Source: Nodosilinea sp. FACHB-141 (lineage in GTDB: Bacteria; Cyanobacteriota; Cyanobacteriia; Phormidesmidales; Phormidesmidaceae). Taken from it: a DNA stretch of 64,000 nucleotides. Under the pieces are notes generated by a model. That model was not told the origin of the DNA. It made no database searches and saw only the letters and a list, made by a program, of their open reading frames with translations. The translations under genes were made by a program, and so were the position numbers. Location: assembly GCF_014696135.1 (NCBI RefSeq), contig NZ_JACJPP010000021.1:248001-312000 (forward strand), given 5' to 3'. Positions 11,737 to 63,689 of this stretch are shown here, piece by piece (positions within the stretch are counted from its first letter, which is position 1; every line of letters starts with the position of its first letter).

Positions 11737-12717
11737 ATGAATCAGACCACCACATGGAATGCCCCCACTCGGCACCACGAGACCTTTAAGGCCGTTGTGC
11801 AGAGCTATGTGCAGCTTACCAAACCCCGCATTATTCCCCTGCTGCTGATTGAGACAGCGGCGGCCATGTGGGTGGCGAGCCAGGGCGAGATCGACCCGGT
11901 GCTGCTGATGGTAACTCTGCTGAGCGGCACCCTGGCAGCGGCTTCGGCCCAGACTATCAACTGCGTCTACGATCGCGACATTGATTTCGACATGGAGCGC
12001 ACTCGCCACCGTCCCATTCCCTCCGGGCGCATTCAGGTGCGCGACGCGCTGGTGTTTGCTGGGGTGCTGGCGGCGCTGTCTTTTGGACTCCAAGTCTGGG
12101 TGGCCAACCTGCTCAGCGCTGGGTTAGCCATGCTGGGCATTGTTATCTACGTAGGGGTCTACACCCTATGGCTGAAGCGGTCTTCGCCTCAAAACATCGT
12201 GATCGGCGGTGCCGCCGGAGCGATTCCGCCCCTGGTGGGCTGGGCGGCGGTGACGGGCGATCTACCCCTGGCCGCATGGCTGTTCTTTGCGATTGTGTTC
12301 ATCTGGACGCCACCTCACTTTTGGGGACTGGCCATGCTAATTCAAGATGAATACGCCAAGGTCAACGTGCCCATGATGCCGGTGATCGCTGGCGACGAGG
12401 CCACAGCGCAGCAGATCTGGTACTACACCCTGGTGTTGGTGCCCCTGACGCTGATGATGACGTTTCCCTTGGGAGCAACTGGCGCAGTGTATGCGGCGAT
12501 CGCCCTGATGCTGGGAGGTATGTTTATTCAACGGGCCTGGGCATTGCTGCAAGCACCGAGCGATCGCGACCTAGCTAAGGGACTGTTCAAGTTCTCGATT
12601 CTCTACATGATGCTGCTGTCGGCGGCCATGGTGGTCGATAGCTGGCCGGTGACGCGGGCAGCAGTGGCGAGCCTATCGCAGCCTCTAGAGCACCTAGTAG
12701 GCATGCTGCCCTTCTAA
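11737..12717 (+). CDS. ctaB: Protoheme IX farnesyltransferase (heme O synthase)
   Basis: The 326-residue UbiA-family membrane protein attaches a farnesyl group to heme B to make heme O, the substrate of CtaA. The prenyl-diphosphate binding motif is seen as [19 protein letters not shown], and the second Asp-rich loop lies after helix 6 around [15 protein letters not shown]. Nine membrane segments are predicted. It is co-oriented with ctaA. The oxidase subunit genes ctaCDE are not in the window. Confidence 0.96.
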
Positions 12718-12822: not shown

Positions 12823-12961
12823 GCCTGTTATGAATTTGCCGATTGCGGTGCCCTACATAGCGTTGGGATAGCCGTTGGGCAATGGGTGGTAGGTTGATCT
12901 TCGGTGAAGCGCATAGCATACGTTTCCCTTGAGATATTGTCTTAAATGGTGTTGCCGCCGT

Positions 12962-13741
12962 ATGCTACGCCCCTTTGTTCCCAAGATTAGCGATGTCCAC
13001 TTCCACAATGGCAATAGTGCTCAGGTGTTGTCGCTATCGAATCACACTACGAGTCTGGAGGCCTTAGGCTACATGGGGTTGCCCATGGCTCAACCTACTC
13101 TAGTGATCATCGGCGGGGCTAGCTTAATGTCTCATGAGAGCATGGAGCGATTGCAAACGGTCTTTGATCAGGTGTTTGCACCGTTAGCTCAATCCTTGGG
13201 CCTGACGGTGCTTGATGGCGGCACCGATACTGGGGTAATTCGCATGATGGGTCAGGCACGCCACACCATTGGCGGCAATTTTCCCCTGATTGGAGTGGTG
13301 CCCAAAGGTAAGGCTCGGTTGCCGGGCGATCGCCACCACGACGATTCCCGTCATGACCTAGAGCCTCACCACACCAATTTTTTTCTTATCCCTGGAGATG
13401 ATTGGGGCAGCGAGTCGCCCTGGTTAGCTGAGTTGGCTTCTGAAATTTCTGCTGACCGTCCGGCGCTGACTATTTTAGTCAACGGTGGCCAGATAGCTTT
13501 AATTGACCTAAAAGAAAATTTGGCTACGGGCAGACCGGCGATTGTGCTGTCAGGTAGTGGGCGTCTAGCTGATTCCATTGCCGCTGCGACCGCCGCACTG
13601 CCACCCGAGACCGATCCGGCGATTCTCGAACTGATTCAGCATTACCAGCCCGACGGCAAGTTAGAGATTATAGATTTATCTTTGCCGGTTGAGCAGATGC
13701 GCGATCGCCTCCAGCAGTACTTCAGCTCCACCCTCGCCTGA
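12962..13741 (+). CDS. SLOG-superfamily LSDAT_prok protein (TRPM-like nucleotide sensor)
   Basis: The 259-residue cytosolic protein belongs to the SLOG Rossmann-like superfamily, in the prokaryotic LSDAT group related to the N-terminal domain of TRPM channels. Visible hallmarks are VIIGGAS at about 48-54, DGGTDTGVIRMMGQAR at about 85-100, LEPHHTNFFLIPGDDWG around 125-145, and LVNGGQIA. Computational work (Burroughs and colleagues) predicts that SLOG domains bind or process nucleotide-derived signals in conflict systems. ATG 12962 is chosen because the FHNGNSAQV segment before the Rossmann fold looks conserved; ATG 13085 would remove it. The SLATT gene follows after 11 bases, so they are one unit. 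Confidence 0.85.
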   Translation: MLRPFVPKISDVHFHNGNSAQVLSLSNHTTSLEALGYMGLPMAQPTLVIIGGASLMSHESMERLQTVFDQVFAPLAQSLGLTVLDGGTDTGVIRMMGQARHTIGGNFPLIGVVPKGKARLPGDRHHDDSRHDLEPHHTNFFLIPGDDWGSESPWLAELASEISADRPALTILVNGGQIALIDLKENLATGRPAIVLSGSGRLADSIAAATAALPPETDPAILELIQHYQPDGKLEIIDLSLPVEQMRDRLQQYFSSTLA

Positions 13742-13752
13742 GGTTTCTCGCC

Positions 13753-15069
13753 GTGACCTCTTTGCCTTCAGAGCCCACCGATTCTGTGCCTGTCCCCGAG
13801 AGCAATGCTGCTTCCCCGAGCCTGCTCAACAGCGCTTGGGAAAGGTATCGGGTCTACAGCCAAAATGCTTCTAAGGCTCAGGAGCGGTTTCTTGCCGTCG
13901 AGCGCCTGATTACACTTTTGGCGCTTTTGGTTGTGGTTTTGGCGGTGGTCCATCCAATCGTTCTTCGCCAAACACCCACGTCTGAAAACTCAGCAGAACT
14001 GAACAAACAGCTGCCTTTGAGCTTACTCTTCGACCAGCAGCATGTTGGGTTAGGGATGCTCAATCTGCTGCTGATTATTCTGCCTATTTCGATCACGGCG
14101 CTGCGAGCTTTTGCTATCAAGTTTAGTCGAGGCAATAGCTGGGTAATTTTGCGAGGCAATGCCGAAGCTCTCAAGATGGAAATTTTTTATTACCGCACTC
14201 AGGTCAAGCGGTATCAAACCGATCGCAATACAGAACTAGCTGAAAAAATTCAGCAGATTAGCCAAAGGTTGAAGGGCAGCGTTGTGCACCAGCGGGCTCT
14301 GTTTCCTTACGAGAACCAAAGATCGGCTCGGCTGCGCTTGGGCGTTGTGTTTTTGGCTATTAGCCGTCTATGGTCTTTGGGGCAGCGGCTGGCCAATTAC
14401 GGTTGGGAGTTTTTTTTCGCTGTTAAAGAAGAAGCCGAGAGTTTGCCTAAAGAGCCCGATCGCACTTCTGATTTAGACCCCGAGGGCTATATCAAGTACC
14501 GCTTAGAGGAGCAGTTTGACTGGTATCGACGCAAGGCTCGCAGCTACGATCGCCAGCACCAGCTTTTGCAAACCAGTGTTTATATTTTTGGTGGCTTTGG
14601 CACGCTGCTGGCCGCGATCGGGTTTCAAAGCTGGGTCGCGGTAACGGCGACCATAGCCGCATCTTTGGTCAACTACCTGGAGTATCGCCGGGTAGAGGTT
14701 ACTCTCATGGGCTATAACCAATCTGCCGATGCGCTCTACGATATTCGCACCTGGTGGTACTCGCTCTCTGCGGACAAGCAAGCAAGCTTTAACAACTTTG
14801 AAAAGCTCGTAGTCAATACCGAAGAGACCATTCGCAGTGAGCACAACAGCTGGTTGCAGGATATGCAAGATCGGCTGTCTGACCTCTACGAGTCTGAAGG
14901 CAAGAAACAACATTCTGCGCCACATGCCAAGGTGGTAGACGCCAAATCAGCAGAGGGGCTGCTTAAGGAAAAGACAGATCACGAAGCTTTGCCTGAGAGC
15001 AAACCAGAGCTATTGCCGCCCTACCCAGAGCTTCCTCTTGATGCAGATACCCTGCCTTCTGCCCATTGA
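13753..15069 (+). CDS. Tandem SLATT (DUF4231-like) membrane effector
   Basis: The 438-residue protein contains two copies of the SLATT-type two-helix membrane module. The first has hydrophobic segments at about 50-72 and 100-121 followed by FYYRTQVKRYQ. The second begins YRLEEQFDWYRRKARSYDRQ near 245 and has segments at about 275-292 and 294-312 followed by the EYRRVEVTLMGYNQSADALYD helix. SLATT proteins are predicted pore-forming effectors of SLOG- or SMODS-based immune systems. The tail (about 390-438) is Pro/Glu/Lys-rich and disordered. It starts at GTG 13753, 11 bases after the LSDAT stop. The end lies 35 bases from the convergent WD40 stop codon. Confidence 0.82.
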   Translation: MTSLPSEPTDSVPVPESNAASPSLLNSAWERYRVYSQNASKAQERFLAVERLITLLALLVVVLAVVHPIVLRQTPTSENSAELNKQLPLSLLFDQQHVGLGMLNLLLIILPISITALRAFAIKFSRGNSWVILRGNAEALKMEIFYYRTQVKRYQTDRNTELAEKIQQISQRLKGSVVHQRALFPYENQRSARLRLGVVFLAISRLWSLGQRLANYGWEFFFAVKEEAESLPKEPDRTSDLDPEGYIKYRLEEQFDWYRRKARSYDRQHQLLQTSVYIFGGFGTLLAAIGFQSWVAVTATIAASLVNYLEYRRVEVTLMGYNQSADALYDIRTWWYSLSADKQASFNNFEKLVVNTEETIRSEHNSWLQDMQDRLSDLYESEGKKQHSAPHAKVVDAKSAEGLLKEKTDHEALPESKPELLPPYPELPLDADTLPSAH

Positions 15070-15104: not shown

Positions 15105-17156
15105 TTACTCTGGCCAATTAACTGGCATTAGCCCCACAACCCGCCCGAGGGATGACTCGAAGAGGGCCGCGGGGTCTGGGGCGCGGGGTGGGAGGTTGCA
15201 GAGGGCGCGATCGGCGTCGGTGGCTTGGCCGTACTCTAGGTAGTTGTGCAGCCACTGGCAGCCCCAGGCCAGTAGCTCTGGCAGGGTTTGGAGTTCATGT
15301 ACCTGCACTCGACCATCGACTACCGTAGCCAAGCGCTGCCCATCGGGGCTAACGGCGGGTGAACCGTCATAAATGGCTAGTTGCCGCCCTTGTAAATCCC
15401 ACACCCGCGCCGTGCCATCGTAGGAGGTTGTTACCACTTGGGTGCCATCGGCGCTAAAACTGGCGCTTCTGACCGCAGCGATGTGCCCCTCTAGGGGAGT
15501 GGATTGTCCGCTTTGCAGGTCCCACACCCGCGCCGTGCCATCGTAGGAGGCCGTCACCACCTGGGTGCCATCGGCGCTAAAACTGGCGCTGTTGACCCAA
15601 TCGGTGTGCCCCTCTAAGGGAGTGGATTGTCCGCTTTGCAGGTCCCACACCCGCGCCGTGCCATCGTCGGAGGCCGTCACCACCTGGGTGCCATCGACAC
15701 TAAAACTGGCGCTTCTGACCGCAGCGGTGTGCCCCTCTAGGGGAGTGGATTGTCCGCTTTGCAGGTCCCACACCCACGCCGTGCCATCGTCGGAGGCCGT
15801 CACCACCTGGGTGCCATCGGCGCTAAAACTGGCGCTGTTGACCGAATCGGTGTGCCCCTCTAAGGGAGTGGATTGTCCGCTTTGCAGGTCCCACACCCGC
15901 GCCGTGCCATCGTCGGAGGCCGTCACTACCTGGGTGCCATCGACACTAAAACTGGCGTTTCTGACCCAATAGGTGTGCCCCTCAAGGGGAGTGGATTGTC
16001 CGCTTTGCAGGTCCCACACCCGCGCCGTGCCATCGGCGGAGGCCGTCACTACCTGGGTGTCATCGGCGCTAAAACTGGCGCTTCTAACCGCAGCGGTGTG
16101 CCCCTCTAGGGGAGTGGATTGTCCGCTTTGCAGGTCCCACACCCGCGCCGTGCCATCGGCGGAGGCCGTCACTACCTGGGTGCCATCGACACTAAAACTG
16201 GCGTTTCTGACCCAATAGGTGTGCCCCTCTAGGGGAGCGGATTGTCCGCTTTGCAGGTCCCACACCCGCGTCGTGCCATCGTAGGAGGCCGTCACTACCT
16301 GGGTGCCATCGGCGCTAAAACTGGCGCTGTTGACAAAATCGGTGTGCCCCTCTAGGGGAATGGATTGTCCGCTTTGCAGGTCCCACACCCGCGCCGTGCC
16401 ATCGGCGGAGGCCGTCACCACCTGGGTGCCATCGACACTAAAACTGGCGCTGTAGACCAAATCGGTGTGCCCCTCAAGGGGAGTGGATTGTCCGCTTTGC
16501 AGGTCCCACACCCGCGCCGTGCCATCGTAGGAGGTTGTTACCACCTGGGTGCCATCGACACTAAAACTGGCGCTTCTGACCGAATCGGTGTGCCCCTCTA
16601 GGGGAGTGGATTGTCCGCTTTGCAGGTCCCACACCCGCGCCGTGCCATCGTCGGAGGCCGTCACCACCTGGGTGCCATCGGCGCTAAAACTGGCGCTGTT
16701 GACAAAATCGGTGTGCCCCTCTAGGGGAGTGGATTGTTCGCTTTGCAGGTCCCACACCCACGCCGTGCCATCGTCGGAGGCCGTCACCACCTGGGTGCCA
16801 TCGGCGCTAAAACTGGCGCTTCTGACCGCAGCGGTGTGCCCCTCTAGGGGAGTGGATTGTCCGCTTTGCAGGTCCCACACCCGCGCCGTGCCATCGTCGG
16901 AGGCCGTCACCACCTGGGTGCCATCGGCGCTAAAACTGGCGCTTCTAACCGCAGCGGTGTGCCCCTCTAGGGGAGTGGATTGTCCGCTTTGCAGGTCCCA
17001 CACCCGCGCCGTGCCATCGTAGGAGGTTGTTACCACCTGGGTGCCATCGGCGCTAAAACTGGCGCTTCTGACCGAATCGGTGTGCCCCTCTAAGGGAGTG
17101 GATTGTCCGCTTTGCAGGTCCCACACCCGCGCCGTGCCATCGTCGGAGGCCGTCAC
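15105..17156 (-). CDS. WD40 repeat array, C-terminal part of a frameshifted TIR-WD40 protein
   Basis: The 683-residue open frame is almost entirely WD40 repeats: fourteen 41-residue units of near-identical sequence plus a divergent fifteenth ending about residue 620. A Trp/Leu-rich tail follows (LLAWGCQWLHNYLEYGQ), as seen in other cyanobacterial STAND-like proteins. Each unit carries DGTARVWDLQSGQSTPLEGH. The units differ mainly at the two residues on each side of the Val after GHT, at one residue before DGT, and at one in SFS(A/V)DG. The GTG at 17156 is only the first start codon in the frame. Coding sense continues upstream to about 17,315, where it meets the TIR gene in the -1 frame. It is therefore probably the second half of one gene, not a separate gene. 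Confidence 0.85.
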   Translation of the reverse strand: MTASDDGTARVWDLQSGQSTPLEGHTDSVRSASFSADGTQVVTTSYDGTARVWDLQSGQSTPLEGHTAAVRSASFSADGTQVVTASDDGTARVWDLQSGQSTPLEGHTAAVRSASFSADGTQVVTASDDGTAWVWDLQSEQSTPLEGHTDFVNSASFSADGTQVVTASDDGTARVWDLQSGQSTPLEGHTDSVRSASFSVDGTQVVTTSYDGTARVWDLQSGQSTPLEGHTDLVYSASFSVDGTQVVTASADGTARVWDLQSGQSIPLEGHTDFVNSASFSADGTQVVTASYDGTTRVWDLQSGQSAPLEGHTYWVRNASFSVDGTQVVTASADGTARVWDLQSGQSTPLEGHTAAVRSASFSADDTQVVTASADGTARVWDLQSGQSTPLEGHTYWVRNASFSVDGTQVVTASDDGTARVWDLQSGQSTPLEGHTDSVNSASFSADGTQVVTASDDGTAWVWDLQSGQSTPLEGHTAAVRSASFSVDGTQVVTASDDGTARVWDLQSGQSTPLEGHTDWVNSASFSADGTQVVTASYDGTARVWDLQSGQSTPLEGHIAAVRSASFSADGTQVVTTSYDGTARVWDLQGRQLAIYDGSPAVSPDGQRLATVVDGRVQVHELQTLPELLAWGCQWLHNYLEYGQATDADRALCNLPPRAPDPAALFESSLGRVVGLMPVNWPE
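15432..17153 (-). repeat. Fourteen tandem 123-bp units encoding WD40 blades
   Basis: The DNA repeats with an exact period of 123 bases over fourteen units, matching 41 codons. Units are nearly identical at the DNA level, including silent sites, which points to recent duplication or gene conversion. The variable residues written as pairs around the Val are, from unit 1 to 14: DS/RS, AA/RS, AA/RS, DF/NS, DS/RS, DL/YS, DF/NS, YW/RN, AA/RS, YW/RN, DS/NS, AA/RS, DW/NS, AA/RS. The array could be mis-assembled from short reads. Confidence 0.92.
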
Positions 17157-17209
17157 TACCTGGGTGTCATCGACACTAAAACTGGCGCTGTTGACCCCAG
17201 CCTTATGGG

Positions 17210-19783
17210 CTAACGGACTGTTAGGAGATCTAGCTTGTAGCTGCTGTAAGACAAAAATAGGGCTAGCGGCGGGGTACTCAGCGACAGCCTTGACGGGGAT
17301 GCCAGCTTCGTTAAAGCTGCTTGTAGCTCGCGCCCGGCCTTAATGGCTCTAAGTAATGCTTCAATTTGGTTAAACTCAAAGCGGCCTAGAGCGAAGGTGC
17401 CGGCTTGCTCTAGGCGAGTGCCGATTTGGGCCAGGTGCTGTTTTTTTTCGGCCTCAGCGGTTTTGGTATCGGCCTCTCTGGTTCTCGCTTCTGCATATTG
17501 GGCTTTGGCTTCGGCCTCTCTGACCTTCGCTTCTACCTCTTGGGCCTTTCTATCGGCCTCTCTAGCTCTCTCTGCTGCATTTTCGACCTTTCTATCAGCC
17601 TCTCTGGCACGAGTTTCGGCATCCTCAGCTTTGGCTTCAGCTTGTTCCTTATCTCGTTGGGCCTGATCAGCTTGTTTCTTTGCATTCCCAGTCGAGATTT
17701 CTGCCAGATATGTTTTTCGGTTTGCGCTCAGCTCCTGCTGAGTGGCGCTAGCTAAATTCCACCGTGCTTGAGAAGTCTCTTGAGATGCCTTACTTTGCAA
17801 ATACCAAGCGCCTCCTCCCGATATCGCTGCGACTAAAATTCCTGCAAACGCCGCGATCGCCCCAGTCAGGGCACCTCGGCGCAGCTTTTTCTCAGCCGCC
17901 TCTTCAGCCTCTTGCCTGGCTCTAGCCGCACGAATGTATTCTTGCTGCAAACCCGTAGGCTGGGGTTCTACCTTGGCGTTGGTGGCTAACCAGTGCTCCG
18001 CCGTTTCCAGATCCTTTCCCCGCAGCAGCAGGCTTTCATCGCGCCCCCGCCGATCCCACTCGCCCGATCGCACCAACAACCGCGTATGAGTCTCCAAATG
18101 CTCCCGATCCGTATCCAGCGTCCTCAGCAACCCAGCAAAATTTGCCTGAAAGTCGCCATCATGCTCGCGAAAATCTAGCCATTGCAGCTTGGCCAGCACC
18201 GGGTGCAGGTCAGCCACATCGATTGCCCGATGCAGCACCGGCACCATGCGCTTATTTAGCCCCTGGGCATACTCCACCTCATCGGCACAAAAGGGCGAGT
18301 TAATCGACTCCGGCGACAGCACAAACACAAACACATCTGAGCTTTCAATTCCCCGGTAAATCTCCTGCTGAAAATCGGTGCCGGTGGCGATGCTCTCCTG
18401 GTCAAACCAGGTGCGTTTGCCCTGGGTTTGCAGCGCATCATTCAGCCTGCGGGCAAAGTCAGAATCCACCCGCGAGTAAGAGATAAACACATCCAGCGAG
18501 GGGTTGGGCGGCTGGCGCAGGCTCTCAGCAATAAACTGCTCGTGCAGCTCGGTGGGCGGGTGGCGGTGGGTGCGGGCCACCTTTAGCCAAGTTTCGGCCC
18601 GGCGCAGGTTGTAGCCCCGCAGCAGCAGGGTGGGGTTTTGCTGCTGCCGCTGCCACTTCAGCGCCTGCACCAGCCAGGTTTTGTGCTCGGTGTGGTAAGC
18701 GACATCGGTGTTGAGCTGCCTCAGCAACTGGCTTTCATCCGCCGCATAATCGCTGGTCTGGAGGTTGTCCGTCAGGTCAACGTGCTGAAGGGTTCTCAAC
18801 CCCTCCGGCACCAGCTCCGGCTCCACCGTTGCCGCCAGCACCGGAATCACCCGCTTGTTAAGCGCCAAGGCCTGGGCCAGTTCCTGCTGGCAGTAGGGCG
18901 ACTGGGCCGAGGGCGGCGACAGCAAAAAGATTACGTTGTCGGCTTCCTCAACGCCCTGGGCAATAACGCTGTTGTAATCTTGGCTGGTTTGAATATCGGT
19001 GCGGTAGTTCCACACCGTGATGCCCTGGCGCAGCAGCGATCGCCGAATCTGCTCCGCCACTCCCTGGTCTTGGTCGCTGTGGCACAAAAACACCTGGGTC
19101 ATCAGGTTGCTGGCGTTTTTAATGCTCTCGGTAATAAATTCGCAGTGCAGATCAGTGGGGGTGCAGGGCAGCGGTGCCCCCGCCAGGGTGCGGGCGTGCA
19201 ACCAGGTTTCTGCCAGTTGGCGATCGCGGCCCACCAGCAAAAACCGAGTTTCGCGATGGCGGCGATCCCACCCCAGAGCCTGGGTAAGCAGGGCAGTGTG
19301 CTGGTGCACGTAGGCTTTTACATCGGGCTGCTCAGCGCCCGTCTTTTCGTCGCATAGGTGCAGGGCGCGGCTGAGCTTATCGAGGTACTGGGCCGGGTCA
19401 TCGACCCCGTCGCGGCACCAGATCCAATTCAGCAGGCGAATGGTAGCGCAGCCAGTAGGGTCATGGGCGGCCCAGGCGGCACTGTCGCCCCCGCCCACGT
19501 GCAGCAGCGGAATGATGCGCTTGCCGTAAGCGATCGCCCGCTCTAGCTCAACTTTGCAGTAGGGCGAGGCCATCGCCGAGGGCGAAATGATGTAGACAAA
19601 CTGGTGCGATCGCTCGATGGCGTCGTCAATGCGCCCCTGCCAGTCGGTTGCCGAAGGAATGTCGTCTAAATCGAGCCAGATTTGGCTCAGGCCCCGCACC
19701 CTGAGCTGCTCTTTGAGGGCGATGGCAAAGGCTTTGCTATCAGCCCGTGCGTAGGAGACAAACGCATCGTAAAAAGCAGCCAT
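17210..19783 (-). CDS. Triple-TIR, membrane-anchored coiled-coil protein (N-terminal part of the TIR-WD40 gene)
   Basis: The 857-residue frame has three TIR domains at about 1-120, 229-345 and 429-545. Each begins with a DAFVSYA/VFLCHS/DVFISYS strand and keeps the putative NADase glutamate in C-x-x-E (Glu79, Glu301, Glu502). A similar linker with AExWL and a PT-L-EFI/EYI motif follows each one. A single membrane segment lies at about 637-662, and an Ala/Glu/Arg coiled coil at about 690-785. The final 30 residues from about 825 look like off-frame sequence. In the -1 frame from about 17,315 the expected linker (PVKAVAEYPAASPIFVLQQL) leads straight into the WD40 array. ATG 19783 starts directly at the first TIR strand. 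Confidence 0.85.
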   Translation of the reverse strand: MAAFYDAFVSYARADSKAFAIALKEQLRVRGLSQIWLDLDDIPSATDWQGRIDDAIERSHQFVYIISPSAMASPYCKVELERAIAYGKRIIPLLHVGGGDSAAWAAHDPTGCATIRLLNWIWCRDGVDDPAQYLDKLSRALHLCDEKTGAEQPDVKAYVHQHTALLTQALGWDRRHRETRFLLVGRDRQLAETWLHARTLAGAPLPCTPTDLHCEFITESIKNASNLMTQVFLCHSDQDQGVAEQIRRSLLRQGITVWNYRTDIQTSQDYNSVIAQGVEEADNVIFLLSPPSAQSPYCQQELAQALALNKRVIPVLAATVEPELVPEGLRTLQHVDLTDNLQTSDYAADESQLLRQLNTDVAYHTEHKTWLVQALKWQRQQQNPTLLLRGYNLRRAETWLKVARTHRHPPTELHEQFIAESLRQPPNPSLDVFISYSRVDSDFARRLNDALQTQGKRTWFDQESIATGTDFQQEIYRGIESSDVFVFVLSPESINSPFCADEVEYAQGLNKRMVPVLHRAIDVADLHPVLAKLQWLDFREHDGDFQANFAGLLRTLDTDREHLETHTRLLVRSGEWDRRGRDESLLLRGKDLETAEHWLATNAKVEPQPTGLQQEYIRAARARQEAEEAAEKKLRRGALTGAIAAFAGILVAAISGGGAWYLQSKASQETSQARWNLASATQQELSANRKTYLAEISTGNAKKQADQAQRDKEQAEAKAEDAETRAREADRKVENAAERAREADRKAQEVEAKVREAEAKAQYAEARTREADTKTAEAEKKQHLAQIGTRLEQAGTFALGRFEFNQIEALLRAIKAGRELQAALTKLASPSRLSLSTPPLALFLSYSSYKLDLLTVR
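17306..17320 (-). other. Probable frameshift joining TIR and WD40 parts
   Basis: Family-like sequence passes from the TIR frame (AGRELQAAL) to the -1 frame (NEAGIPVKAVAEYP) at about 17,310-17,315. On the minus strand the bases read GCAGCTTTAACG. A one-base deletion, natural or from sequencing, explains it best. The heptamer TTTAACG is not a canonical slippery site. Confidence 0.7.
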
Positions 19784-20069
19784 GGGGCGATCGGTTAAAG
19801 CAGGTGCTTGAAAATTCTCGGGTTTTGGAAAACTCAGGAATGGGGGTGAAAAGAACGATTTTTACTGAGAGTAAACCGCCTTTCCTCAAAACAGCGGAAA
19901 TCTACGATTTGCTTAACAGGCATGGGCGACACCGCTCTAGCAACGATCAGATGGCCCCTCAATGCGATAGCCCTTTGAGCCGGTCTTTGACCATCGACCT
20001 CACGCCGTTCGGTGGAGTTCTGTAGAATGACAAGAGTAGGAACCAATACGTTTGGGGTTAGCTCTACAG

Positions 20070-21095
20070 ATGGCCGCGGCGGTAACAATTCAAAACTTGA
20101 AGAAGTCCTACGGGGCGGTGGAAGCAGTGCGCGATGTGTCGCTCACCATTGAGCCTGGCGAAATTTTTGGCCTGCTAGGGCCCAATGGGGCGGGCAAAAC
20201 TACCACCATTCGCTGCCTCTGCACCCTGACCACCCCAGACAGCGGCACGCTTGAAGTCATGGGGGTTTCGGTAGTCGAGCAGCCTCGGCTAGTGCGCCAA
20301 TATCTTGGCTACATCGCCCAGGAGGTTGCCCTTGACAAGGTACTCACCGGACGGGAGCTATTGCGGCTTCAAGCCGATATCTACCACATGCCTAAGAGTG
20401 TGTCTGGCCCTCGCATCGACCAGATGATCGACTTGCTAGAGCTAGGTGACTGGGCCGACAAAAAGACCGGCAACTATTCTGGAGGCTTGAGAAAGCGCCT
20501 AGATTTAGCTCTAGGGTTGCTGCATCAGCCCGACCTGCTGGTGCTTGATGAGCCCACGGTTGGCCTTGATATTGAGACGCGCTCGGCGGTGTGGAGTTTT
20601 TTACGGCAGCTGCGAGCGGCAGGCACCACGATTTTAATCACCAGCCACTACCTTGAAGAGGTCGATGCCCTGGCTGACCGGGTGGCGATTATTGACCGAG
20701 GCCGAGTGATTTCGGCCGGCACCCCCAGTGAACTAAAGGATAAGATTGGGGGCGATCGCATCACCCTGCGCATTCGCGAATTTACCTCCGACACTGAGGC
20801 CGCCAATGCCCGCACTATGTTGGCTGGGCTGCCCTTTGTGCGCGAGGTGATCGTCAACTCGGCCCAGGGCAACTCTCTCAACTTAGTAGTTGACCGTCAG
20901 CCCGATGTGCTGTTGACGGTACAGCAGGCGCTCAAAGCCGCCGATCTGCCTGTGTTTGGCATTGCCCAATCGCGCCCTAGCCTTGACGATGTGTATTTGG
21001 CCGCCACAGGCCGCACCTTGATGGATGCGGAGCTGGCTGCCGTCGGCCAGCGCGACCTTAAGAAAGAAAAGAAACAGGCCATGAAGGGACGCTAG
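20070..21095 (+). CDS. ABC transporter ATP-binding protein, DrrA-like
   Basis: The 341-residue ATPase energises an ABC-2 exporter. Walker A is GPNGAGKTT, the signature is SGGLRKRLDLA (variant of LSGGQ), Walker B is LLVLDEPTVGLD, and the switch His is in TSHYLEE. The C-terminal extension with RPSLDDVYLAATGR is typical of DrrA-type exporters. ATG 20070 (MAAAVTIQ) is preferred over an in-frame upstream codon at 20052. The permease gene follows after 9 bases. The substrate is unknown. I recall such pairs next to ctaAB in cyanobacteria, which would suggest a link with oxidase assembly. Confidence 0.92.
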   Translation: MAAAVTIQNLKKSYGAVEAVRDVSLTIEPGEIFGLLGPNGAGKTTTIRCLCTLTTPDSGTLEVMGVSVVEQPRLVRQYLGYIAQEVALDKVLTGRELLRLQADIYHMPKSVSGPRIDQMIDLLELGDWADKKTGNYSGGLRKRLDLALGLLHQPDLLVLDEPTVGLDIETRSAVWSFLRQLRAAGTTILITSHYLEEVDALADRVAIIDRGRVISAGTPSELKDKIGGDRITLRIREFTSDTEAANARTMLAGLPFVREVIVNSAQGNSLNLVVDRQPDVLLTVQQALKAADLPVFGIAQSRPSLDDVYLAATGRTLMDAELAAVGQRDLKKEKKQAMKGR

Positions 21096-61838: not shown

Positions 61839-63689
61839 CTATTCCATAATCAGGATTACGCCCTGCACCTGCTTTTTGGCGTTTACCAAGGGGGTGCAGG
61901 TGATGTGGCAGCTCAGGCTGCGGCCCTTGCGGTTGACGGCCTCGATGGTCAGCTCGACGGAGCCGACGCCGGCTGAGGCTAGGCAGTCGCGAATGGGCTG
62001 GCGCAGCTGCTCTACCGGCAGACCCATATCTAGGTTGAGGAAATATTGGCCGACAACTTCTTCGGGGCGCAGGCCCCAGAGGTCTTCGGCTTTGTTGTTC
62101 CAAATTTGCACTTGCAGGTCGCGGTTGACTACTGCCACGCCGCCTTTGAGACTGGCGAACACGCATTCTAGAAACGTGTTGCTTTGATTGAGGTCGCCGC
62201 TGCTGCGCTGGAGTTCTTCGTTGAGGGTTTGGAGTTCTTCGTTGGCCGATTGCAGTTCTTCGTTCATGGTTTCCAACTCTTCGTTGGTGGACTGCAATTC
62301 TTCGTTGGTGGTTTCTAGTTCTTCATTGGTGGACTGCAATTCTTCGTTGGTGGTTTCTAGTTCTTCGTTGGTGGATTGCAATTCTTCGTAGGCCATCTCT
62401 AGCTCTTGGTTGGCGTGCTCTAGCTCGGCCTGCAACCGTTTGAACTGGGTGATATCGACAAAGCTAATGCTGGCTCCGAGAATGGCGCTGTCGCTGCCAA
62501 ACAGCGGGGTGATCTGCACCTCGAAGAAAACGGAATCACCCCGAGGATTTTGCCAGGCGACATCGGGCAGGTTGATGGTGCGGCGGCGTTCGTAGATTTC
62601 TTCCAGGCAAGAGCGCAGCTCTACGGGGCGGTAGGAAAGTTCTAAATCTTGCAGGGGGCGACCGATATCCTGCTGGGAGAGACCAAAGAGCACCTTGACG
62701 CGCTGGTTGGCCAAAACCAACACGCCGTTGTGCTTGAGCACAATGCGGGCCACCGGGCTGACATCAAAGGCAGTCTCTAGCAGGCGGAGCTGGTCGGTCA
62801 GGTCATCGGCAGTGGCTTCGTGACCGGTTTGAGCCATAATCAGCAGGCGATCGCGCCCGCTCAACTGAGGCACCTTGGTAAAGATGCGCCCCTTTAGCTG
62901 CACCGGGCTAAAGAGTTTGCTGTGGGTGAGCAGCATTTCGGCTTTGCCCAAGAACAGATAGCCGTTGTCATTGAGGGCAAAGTGAAACCGGGTCAAGATT
63001 CGGCTCTGGGTTTCAGCGTTGAAATACATCAACGTGTTGCGGCACAGCAGCAGGTCAATCTTGGAGATCGGGGCATCTTGAACCAGGTCGTGGCGACCAA
63101 AAATGACCGATCGCCGCAGCTCTTTGCTAAAGGTGTAAATTTCGTCTTTGTGGTCAAAAAATGTGCTGAGCTGGGTTTCTGATAGACCGTCTATTTTGTG
63201 GCTAGAGTAGATGGCCTGGCGCGCCGTTGCCAGAGCGTCTTCGTCGAGATCGGTGGCATAGATTTTGACTCTGGCCTGAAACTGCTCAAGGCCCAGCAGC
63301 TCTGCCAGCAGCATGGCAATGGAGTAGGTTTCTTCGCCGGAGGCGCAGCCAGCGCTCCAAATTCGGATGGGTTCGGTGCTTGCTTTGGAGCGAAAAATTG
63401 TCGGTAAGACGTCGGTGCGCAGGGCATCCCAGCTGGTGGAATCGCGAAAAAATGCGGTGACGTTGATCAGCAGTGTGTTGAACAACTGCTGAAATTCATC
63501 GGGATGCACCTCTAAATAGTCGATGTATTCGCTAAAACTGGTGACACCGACCGTCTGCATGCGGCGGGTGACCCGCCGCATGAGGCTGGGCTGTTTGTAG
63601 CCGGTAAAGTCAAACCCCCGGTTGCTGCGAACGTAGTCTAATAGAGTTCTAAAGGCAGCATCGTCAGAACTTTCTAGATTTGAGGCCAC
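61839..63689 (-). CDS. CheR methyltransferase with PAS domains and NEEL coiled coil
   Basis: The 616-residue protein has a CheR-type SAM-dependent glutamate methyltransferase at about 10-270, including the SAM motif RIWSAGCASGEETYSIAMLL and KIDLLLCRNTLMYF. A PAS domain follows at about 285-405. A coiled coil of repeated TNEELET/TNEELQS units runs from about 415 to 500, and a second PAS domain goes from about 505 to the end. Related proteins often continue into a histidine kinase; this one stops after PAS. It starts 3 bases after cheB. A role in methylation-based signalling with light, redox or ligand input is likely. Confidence 0.92.
   Translation of the reverse strand: MASNLESSDDAAFRTLLDYVRSNRGFDFTGYKQPSLMRRVTRRMQTVGVTSFSEYIDYLEVHPDEFQQLFNTLLINVTAFFRDSTSWDALRTDVLPTIFRSKASTEPIRIWSAGCASGEETYSIAMLLAELLGLEQFQARVKIYATDLDEDALATARQAIYSSHKIDGLSETQLSTFFDHKDEIYTFSKELRRSVIFGRHDLVQDAPISKIDLLLCRNTLMYFNAETQSRILTRFHFALNDNGYLFLGKAEMLLTHSKLFSPVQLKGRIFTKVPQLSGRDRLLIMAQTGHEATADDLTDQLRLLETAFDVSPVARIVLKHNGVLVLANQRVKVLFGLSQQDIGRPLQDLELSYRPVELRSCLEEIYERRRTINLPDVAWQNPRGDSVFFEVQITPLFGSDSAILGASISFVDITQFKRLQAELEHANQELEMAYEELQSTNEELETTNEELQSTNEELETTNEELQSTNEELETMNEELQSANEELQTLNEELQRSSGDLNQSNTFLECVFASLKGGVAVVNRDLQVQIWNNKAEDLWGLRPEEVVGQYFLNLDMGLPVEQLRQPIRDCLASAGVGSVELTIEAVNRKGRSLSCHITCTPLVNAKKQVQGVILIME

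Follow-up and report, generated by a model that had tools for sequence, protein, structure and literature searches.

The locus described here raises the question of what a tandem array of near-identical WD40 repeats does in a cyanobacterium. The array lies in a 64,000-nucleotide stretch of the Nodosilinea sp. FACHB-141 genome (assembly GCF_014696135.1, contig NZ_JACJPP010000021.1, positions 248,001 to 312,000), called the window throughout; genomes, contigs, and loci are denoted where needed by our own handles (G, C, and L numbers). We read it as an array of the WRAP type that diversifies much as HET-E does; the TIR membrane protein that bears it is encoded at a variable site, next to LSDAT and SLATT genes. 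Because replacements are biased to hotspot codons, units are most alike within their own array, relatives carry TIR and WD40 parts in a single frame, and an LSDAT gene recurs in the neighbourhood, we see about an even chance that the array is the diversifying sensor of a receptor for immunity or non-self recognition, feeding an alarm that runs from TIR to LSDAT to SLATT. Near-identical bacterial WD40 propellers with a suspected immune role were already known. Added here are a replacement excess at contact positions, signs of unit exchange, a site with presence/absence variation, and a link between TIR-WD40 proteins and a relative of the TRPM2 N-terminal domain.

Units of the array and the codons at which they differ

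TRF reports the array at 15397-17196 with a period of 123, 14.6 copies, 92% matches, and a score of 2998, far above chance expectation, and the 123-base array is real. It is encoded on the minus strand in an open frame running from 17339 to 15105. Units 1-13 share a median nucleotide identity of 92.7% (range 89.4-98.4) and a median amino acid identity of 87.8% (range 80.5-97.6), the latter exceeding the >60% within-chain identity that marks WRAP-type proteins (PMC9218822). The last eight residues of unit 14 are diverged. A preliminary description of this DNA had recognised the near-identical WD40 repeats and named their variants correctly (YW in units 8 and 10, DF in units 4 and 7), while placing them at 15432-17153, about half a unit away from the exact boundaries (Table 1). 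Its statement that the units are near-identical even at silent sites is accurate within the limit of seven silent changes over 41 codons. It makes no mention of the frame difference between the array and the TIR domains that precede it.

In WD40 proteins, three residues per blade, R1-2, R1, and D-1, are described as top-face contacts (Wu 2012, PMC3419727), and four WD40 sites of the fungal HET-D/HET-E proteins are reported to be under positive selection (PMC1805685). In the window units, R1-2 and R1 are codons 5 and 7, which flank Val6, and D-1 is codon 23, which precedes Asp24. With the register set on the central V by this analysis, these three hotspot codons appear to correspond to three of the four selected HET-D/HET-E sites, whereas the codon selected in HET-D/E after the conserved Asp is invariant across the window units.

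Changes were counted as the least number per codon over units 1-13. Codons 5, 7, and 23 hold nine replacement (N) and no silent (S) changes, against 11 and seven in the remaining 38 codons, and random codon triplets reached nine or more replacements in 42 of 100,000 draws. With the silent changes in codons 1-31 as reference, hotspot w (w_hot) is 5.9 in the window (binomial P 0.0013). Codon 4 is also variable, and its post hoc inclusion gives 11:0 versus 9:7 (p 0.022). The earlier claim that changes lie mainly at surface positions is therefore supported, since the variable codons are the published top-face contact positions; the per-codon N/S comparison that it had proposed reveals a replacement excess beside a conserved residue of the HET-E type.

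The comparison was extended to 15 further arrays of the own and related genomes, out of 33 loci. Arrays with an unsuitable open reading frame (ORF), uneven spacing, or fewer than six in-register units were dropped, including one uniform array (L092). Replacements per site are higher at codons 5, 7, and 23 in all 16 arrays, with varying strength, and in 14 of them all three codons are within the six most variable. Pooled counts are 288N:61S at the hotspots versus 793N:583S elsewhere. The w test covered the same 16 arrays plus L122, an ortholog from Leptolyngbya SIO4C5 with 14 units of its own consensus. Here w_hot exceeds 1 for 15 of the 17 arrays; outside the hotspots, every array has a w of 0.21-0.58. 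In L122, counted over 13 units with one 40-residue unit left out, the hotspots carry 14.5N:2.5S versus 19N:27S elsewhere (p 0.0015). Two further arrays of the FACHB-141 genome, each with its own consensus, also display hotspot bias: one on an nSTAND1 ORF of 1917 residues (L043, C17) and one on an ORF of 912 residues with TIR and a short nSTAND1-like stretch (L044, C24).

Several results weigh against selection for new contacts. Fisher's test of N:S at the three a priori codons versus the rest gives p 0.059, and w_hot is singly significant in just four of the 17 arrays and below 1 in two (L093 and L089 minus, the latter a WD40 ORF close to the locus of G033). Because of these values, relaxed constraint may account for part of the hotspot sites. 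Taken further, the array could be a recent amplification without function, in which one blade multiplied and is now drifting, its hotspots varying from low constraint. The 13 of 17 arrays lacking singly significant w_hot would suit this explanation, which is opposed by the low w outside the hotspots in all arrays while w_hot is raised in most. It is opposed also by L122, where the blades have a median nucleotide identity of 78% and the 27 silent versus 19 replacement changes outside the hotspots therefore point to a maintained scaffold. On balance, drift seems an unlikely explanation. As a source of the variation, a diversity-generating retroelement is disfavoured, since A is the starting base in only six of the 27 types of variant; no reverse transcriptase was searched for.

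Signs of exchange between units and the predicted propellers

The units of the array evolve in concert. For all 15 window units (15/15, eight arrays compared), the nearest unit lies in their own array, as in the independent amplification and homogenisation of each close homologue described for WRAP-type arrays. Over the first 31 codons, mean nucleotide identity is 90% within the window array versus 67% to the array of the syntenic ortholog in G022, which amounts to concerted evolution of the HET-E type. The G022 gene adjoins the same ABC genes and its TIR part is 80-82% identical to that of the window. The unit consensus differs between orthologs, each species being represented by one genome, and the number of units, counted by eye with the last blade excluded, is 15 in the window, 15 in G026, 16 in G033, and 14 in L122. 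Both the variation pattern and this concerted evolution were computed directly from the units.

The recurrence of variants out of order, which had been read as shuffling, is supported by further signs of reassortment. Adjacent window units resemble each other no more than units paired at random do (P 0.82), all four combinations occur in 66 of 190 site pairs, and linkage across all sites declines with distance (0 of 5000 permutations). The identity of window units by lag shows no supra-unit period. A pruned test, limited to the first 31 codons with one site per codon and linked changes merged, was applied to ten arrays. It retains ten sites in the window, with four combinations in 12 of 45 pairs. 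The distance effect gives P 0.0014 and 0.0088 in L043 and L044, which belong to the same genome as the window. Less favourably, it gives P 0.052 in the window itself and is absent in the remaining seven of the ten arrays. Adjacent units are alike (P <0.05) in six of ten arrays, matching the prediction for tandem duplication. Within-unit exchange is thus likely, if not proven, in the most uniform arrays, and recurrent mutation could be a partial source of the out-of-order variants. In the proposed mechanism, unequal exchange and gene conversion between units would copy and reassort blades, and point mutation with selection would alter their contact residues, so that new binding surfaces could arise fast.

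A partner for exchange elsewhere in the genome was also considered; a search of the genome found no second copy of the array DNA (three rows, all inside this array). The contigs of G022 and G010 terminate inside or beside the array (L085 end, L086 start, L141 end), and short-read assemblies may be losing such arrays.

Three groups of known proteins resemble this array. The WRAP protein Npun_R6612 of Nostoc punctiforme (PDB 2YMU) is likewise a cyanobacterial, recently amplified WD40 array placed C-terminally in a conflict-type protein (PMC9218822, PMC6805158). There, a STAND ATPase is reported to carry two 7-bladed propellers, 14 blades in all, with ten point mutations. The window does not have this layout: it holds 16 blades behind TIR domains and a transmembrane (TM) helix, and its array is more varied, with the variation concentrated at hotspots. 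HET-D/HET-E/HNWD of Podospora anserina share near-identical WD40 repeats, concerted evolution, and replacements at top-face codons beside conserved residues (PMC1805685, PMC2873952). These proteins are fungal and carry a NACHT domain, with a HET domain in HET-D/E, whereas the window ORF matches neither family; exchange between members of their gene family is reported, whereas no second copy of the window array was found. The Highly-Repetitive WD40 proteins, about half of them bacterial, also combine conserved blades with diverse hotspot sites (Hu 2017, PMC5587647). That study analysed the dS and w of the repeats, and its main text has no words starting with TIR, positive selection, or immun.

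Structure models were generated with AlphaFold2 for the entire WD40 frame (predicted local distance difference test, pLDDT, 80.9; predicted TM-score, pTM, 0.52) and for its second half with the last blade (pLDDT 83.1, pTM 0.78). In unit 1 of the model, strand a spans unit positions 6-11 and strand b 17-22. Positions 4, 5, and 23 fall in loops, and position 7 comes second in strand a. At the level of secondary structure, the proposed mapping onto a WD40 model thus places the variable positions either in loops or where strand a begins. The nearest PDB sequence is WRAP (2ymu, E 2e-97), which is also top in Foldseek. Among solved structures, both models match ODA16 best (Z 48.2 over 328 residues, covering 37-364 of the first model, and Z 44.0 over 321), which we take to be 8-bladed. 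The designed Tako8, with eight blades according to its structure title, scores Z 42.9 and 38.4. As these outscore the 7-bladed WRAP designs (Z 33.4 and 32.4), seven-bladed propellers were rejected, and the 15 units and last blade would make 16 blades folded into two 8-bladed propellers.

The TIR part, its reading frame, and the predicted topology

The WD40 array is preceded on the minus strand by an ORF of 857 residues (Table 1). Its three TIR domains display the motifs SPYC..E, SPYC..E, and SPFC..E at residues 73, 295, and 496, and the glutamate of this motif is presumably the TIR catalytic residue. By sequence, all three domains thus retain the conserved glutamate motif expected of an NAD-cleaving TIR domain. 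ThsB profiles match parts of the ORF (best 4e-22), while STAND, NACHT, and HET are not among the four families that it matches. The K/E/A-rich stretch after the helix was judged by eye to be a coiled coil. Past the membrane helix, the TIR gene also contains 42-base repeats at 17467-17605.

Table 1. Positions of the array, the TIR gene, and neighbouring features in the window
Feature	Position	Strand	Remarks
UbiA-family gene, left border of variable insertion site	11737..12717	+	
LSDAT_prok (SLOG in TRPM), predicted sensor of ADP-ribose-type signal	12929..13741	+	
SLATT_1/DUF4231, two predicted membrane helices, predicted membrane effector	13753..15069	+	tail-to-tail with WD40 gene
Degenerate 16th blade and C-terminal helix	15105..15365	-	C694 and C714 of 744 are the sole cysteines of the WD40 frame
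14 WD40 units (1-14), 123 bp / 41 residues each, of GHT/GHI type	15366..17087	-	hypervariable codons 4, 5, 7, 23 per unit
Unit 0, first WD40 unit, starting AHKAG	17088..17210	-	diverged in part
857-residue ORF: three TIR domains, one membrane helix, long K/E/A-rich stretch	17210..19783	-	family matches; TIR_2, three stretches
Zone where similarity to relatives moves from TIR frame to WD40 frame	17270..17339	-	
Sole predicted membrane helix (residues ~637-655), separating the TIR part from the WD40 part	17819..17875	-	KKLRR before it
ABC ATPase, right border of variable insertion site	20052..21095	+	

In the relatives G029, G033, G026, and L122, the TIR and WD40 parts form a single frame. The same holds for G022 and G010, where the contig stops within the array, and for G001, where the WD40 part is degenerate. 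Weighing against a working receptor, the two parts are in different frames in the window, with the switch near 17300 and the TIR frame stopping at 17210. The window copy is possibly broken or misread, and from the sequence both a lesion and a sequencing error would be compatible with the change. Unless it is an error, this copy no longer joins the sensor to TIR and may be dead. Frameshifts are reported to disrupt young WRAP propellers often (PMC9218822), and this, with the frame change in the window, speaks for amplification followed by drift. The window copy is not the only disrupted one: in G024, a TIR-WD40 gene adjoining LSDAT and SLATT (L183 988-5055) is spread across several frames.

Other explanations of the frame arrangement are less favoured. 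A programmed frameshift between TIR and WD40 is disfavoured, as no standard slippery motif was seen by eye and the relatives are single-frame. Separate translation of the WD40 ORF is unlikely, as its first listed start, a GTG at 17156, sits within unit 0. A PADLOC match of the WD40 part to HEAT-ARM_XIII was taken as repeat noise.

Topology was examined in 33 proteins from 36 loci, chosen for having seven or more WD motifs together with a TIR-type motif. In mid-protein, each of the 33 has a stretch of 19 hydrophobic residues (mean >=1.8). Lysine and arginine are more frequent ahead of the helix in 29, behind it in one, and equally frequent on both sides in three. Exactly two cysteines follow the helix in 23 of the 33, three in five, and four in five; one of the 23 (L085) is cut at a contig end, so its count is little informative. 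A (G/A/S)C.W...C pair lies near the C-terminus in 25. Seven WD40 ORFs of the FACHB-141 genome without this layout (L044, L045, L046, L047, L048, L053, L055) contrast with these in having 8-15 cysteines in their WD40 part, and L089 minus has 14. L043 and L052, which have a helix ahead of the WD40 part, have four and two. The charge and cysteine patterns across the helix together suggest that the WD40 part is an extracytoplasmic (periplasmic) domain on the oxidising side, with one disulfide. Two observations tell against this: the cysteine count is odd in five of the 33 proteins, and just 2-4 cysteines are present in four WD40 ORFs (L051, L036, and two of L054) in which no clear helix precedes the WD40 part.

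The insertion site and its LSDAT and SLATT genes

The array and its neighbours occupy a variable site between the UbiA-family gene, which we take to be ctaB, and an ABC ATPase gene. This interval is empty (132-226 bp) in six sister species (G017, G008, G004, G020, G012, G025). In G001, ctaB and ABC are adjacent and the TIR ortholog is located beyond ABC2. Others carry different contents: an LRR-Roc-COR gene in G011 (L110 3909-6803), a broken LRR-Roc-COR gene with an IS110 transposase in G009 (L111 9962-14349), LSDAT alone in G016, and, in G019 (L108 12912-14015), LSDAT as two overlapping pieces with a fragment of the TIR N-terminus identified by eye. No ctaB, LSDAT, or TIR3 match was found beside ABC over ~12 kb in G023 (L115 1-12240) and ~16 kb in G003 (L116 2208-18001), among 14 loci viewed; other inserts or a rearrangement are possible there. 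Sister species thus differ in whether this site is empty or holds another insert or a different array.

This variability bears on the proposal that the array is a structural scaffold, with blades that differ so as to hold several cellular partners, each of them fixed. Such a role has been suggested for repetitive WD40 proteins in general, whose hotspots are proposed to adapt to differing partners as the proteins scaffold complexes (Hu 2017, PMC5587647). The empty interval in six sister species, the differences in array and unit number between orthologs, and the association with TIR and LSDAT all argue against it, and we consider it very unlikely.

The gene nearest ctaB encodes an LSDAT whose top PDB relative is TRPM2 (whole-sequence E 2.3e-7), the fragment 7aov aligning over residues 56-226 (E 2.4e-6). 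Individual TRPM2 stretches match it weakly, which counts against the relationship. TRPM2 is gated by ADP-ribose. No PADLOC family matches LSDAT or SLATT, and an LSDAT homologue at E 1e-30 is present in 35 of 63 genomes of the order. Its surroundings were surveyed at 40 loci (43 rows less the window's own and less two, since the two-piece LSDAT of G019 and G014 were each counted once), with TIR, SLATT, LSDAT, and WD40 detected by profiles built from the sequences of this analysis rather than from Pfam. A TIR ORF lies within 5 kb of LSDAT at 25 of the 40 loci, and TIR and WD40 share one ORF at 18. Among full 16-kb regions, a TIR ORF occurs in 12 of 17 with LSDAT versus two of 20 control regions drawn from the contigs bearing LSDAT loci (p 2e-4). 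The LSDAT-TIR orientation is divergent in 14 cases and co-directional with LSDAT first in 11. At six loci, five of them from one genus (e.g. L171 4127-8318, L174 7577-11693), LSDAT is directly upstream of a TIR-TM-WD40 gene with a gap of 32-83 bp.

The association has exceptions. The remaining 15 of 40 loci have no TIR ORF within 5 kb, some of them at contig ends; L150, L151, L167, and L170 are true misses away from contig ends, and in G010, also among the misses, the TIR gene sits on the facing contig. SLATT is near just nine of the 40 loci. Moreover, the 40 loci are not independent, as at least six of the 25 linked to TIR come from one genus.

Together, these genes resemble Thoeris, in which a TIR signal maker also adjoins a SLOG-type nucleotide sensor coupled to an effector (PMC11204291, PMC9503650). 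The window has the TIR protein, with three TIR_2 stretches. It differs in that no ThsA (SIR2-SLOG or TM-macro) is among the genes adjacent to it, the rest of the genome not having been searched for ThsA; its sensor is LSDAT, its effector candidate is a separate two-helix SLATT, and the TIR protein bears its own WD40 part. SLOG domains are reported to sense TIR products in Thoeris, and SLATT is predicted to be an ADPr-regulated membrane effector adjoining TIR genes of firmicute phages (PMC9503650, PMC11204291). These reports support a chain from TIR to LSDAT to SLATT as a hypothesis. In such a chain, two propellers outside the inner membrane would bind an invader or non-self protein, and ligand binding would cluster the cytoplasmic TIR domains. 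These would then make an NAD-derived signal, LSDAT would bind it, and SLATT would open the membrane, so that the cell stops or dies. Recognition and signalling, like topology, are here predicted from sequence.

The ligand could instead come from another filament, and the protein would then serve allorecognition or kin discrimination among filaments, not defence against viruses. Nodosilinea is filamentous, and the WD40 part is predicted to be an ectodomain. The contact positions and concerted repeats are of the kind seen in HET-D/HET-E, which have this role. However, Thoeris is made up of just such parts, a TIR and a SLOG-type sensor, and neighbourhoods of TIR with SLATT are predicted to be antiviral (PMC9503650). 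That two relatives have LRR-Roc-COR genes at this site favours a defence-type site, although not decisively. Allorecognition or kin discrimination seems rather improbable.

Animal Toll-like receptors have a repeat ectodomain, one membrane helix, and a cytoplasmic TIR. They share this layout with the window protein only if the predicted topology is right, and the window protein differs in its reversed chain order, WD40 rather than LRR repeats, and three TIR domains; no homology of the ectodomains is claimed. A bolder version of the immune reading is a tentative and somewhat doubtful one. It would make this a widespread cyanobacterial receptor of Toll-like topology, with hypervariable WD40 propellers held by one disulfide outside the inner membrane and TIR inside, in which an ADP-ribose-type signal passes to a TRPM2-like LSDAT and a separate SLATT pore, and blade shuffling renews specificity. 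If the immune reading is right, bacteria would have a counterpart, open to testing, of both the HET-E diversification of fungi and Toll-like topology, a concrete chain from TIR product to LSDAT to SLATT that can be assayed, and a means of quickly changing immune recognition.

Two minor observations were made alongside. At L160 (6008-7543), a DUF4231/SLATT_3 domain is fused to a Glyco_hydro_19 (chitinase-type) domain between the LSDAT and TIR genes. The window also contains a second tandem repeat at 62212-62426, with 21/42-base units within a long minus-strand ORF.

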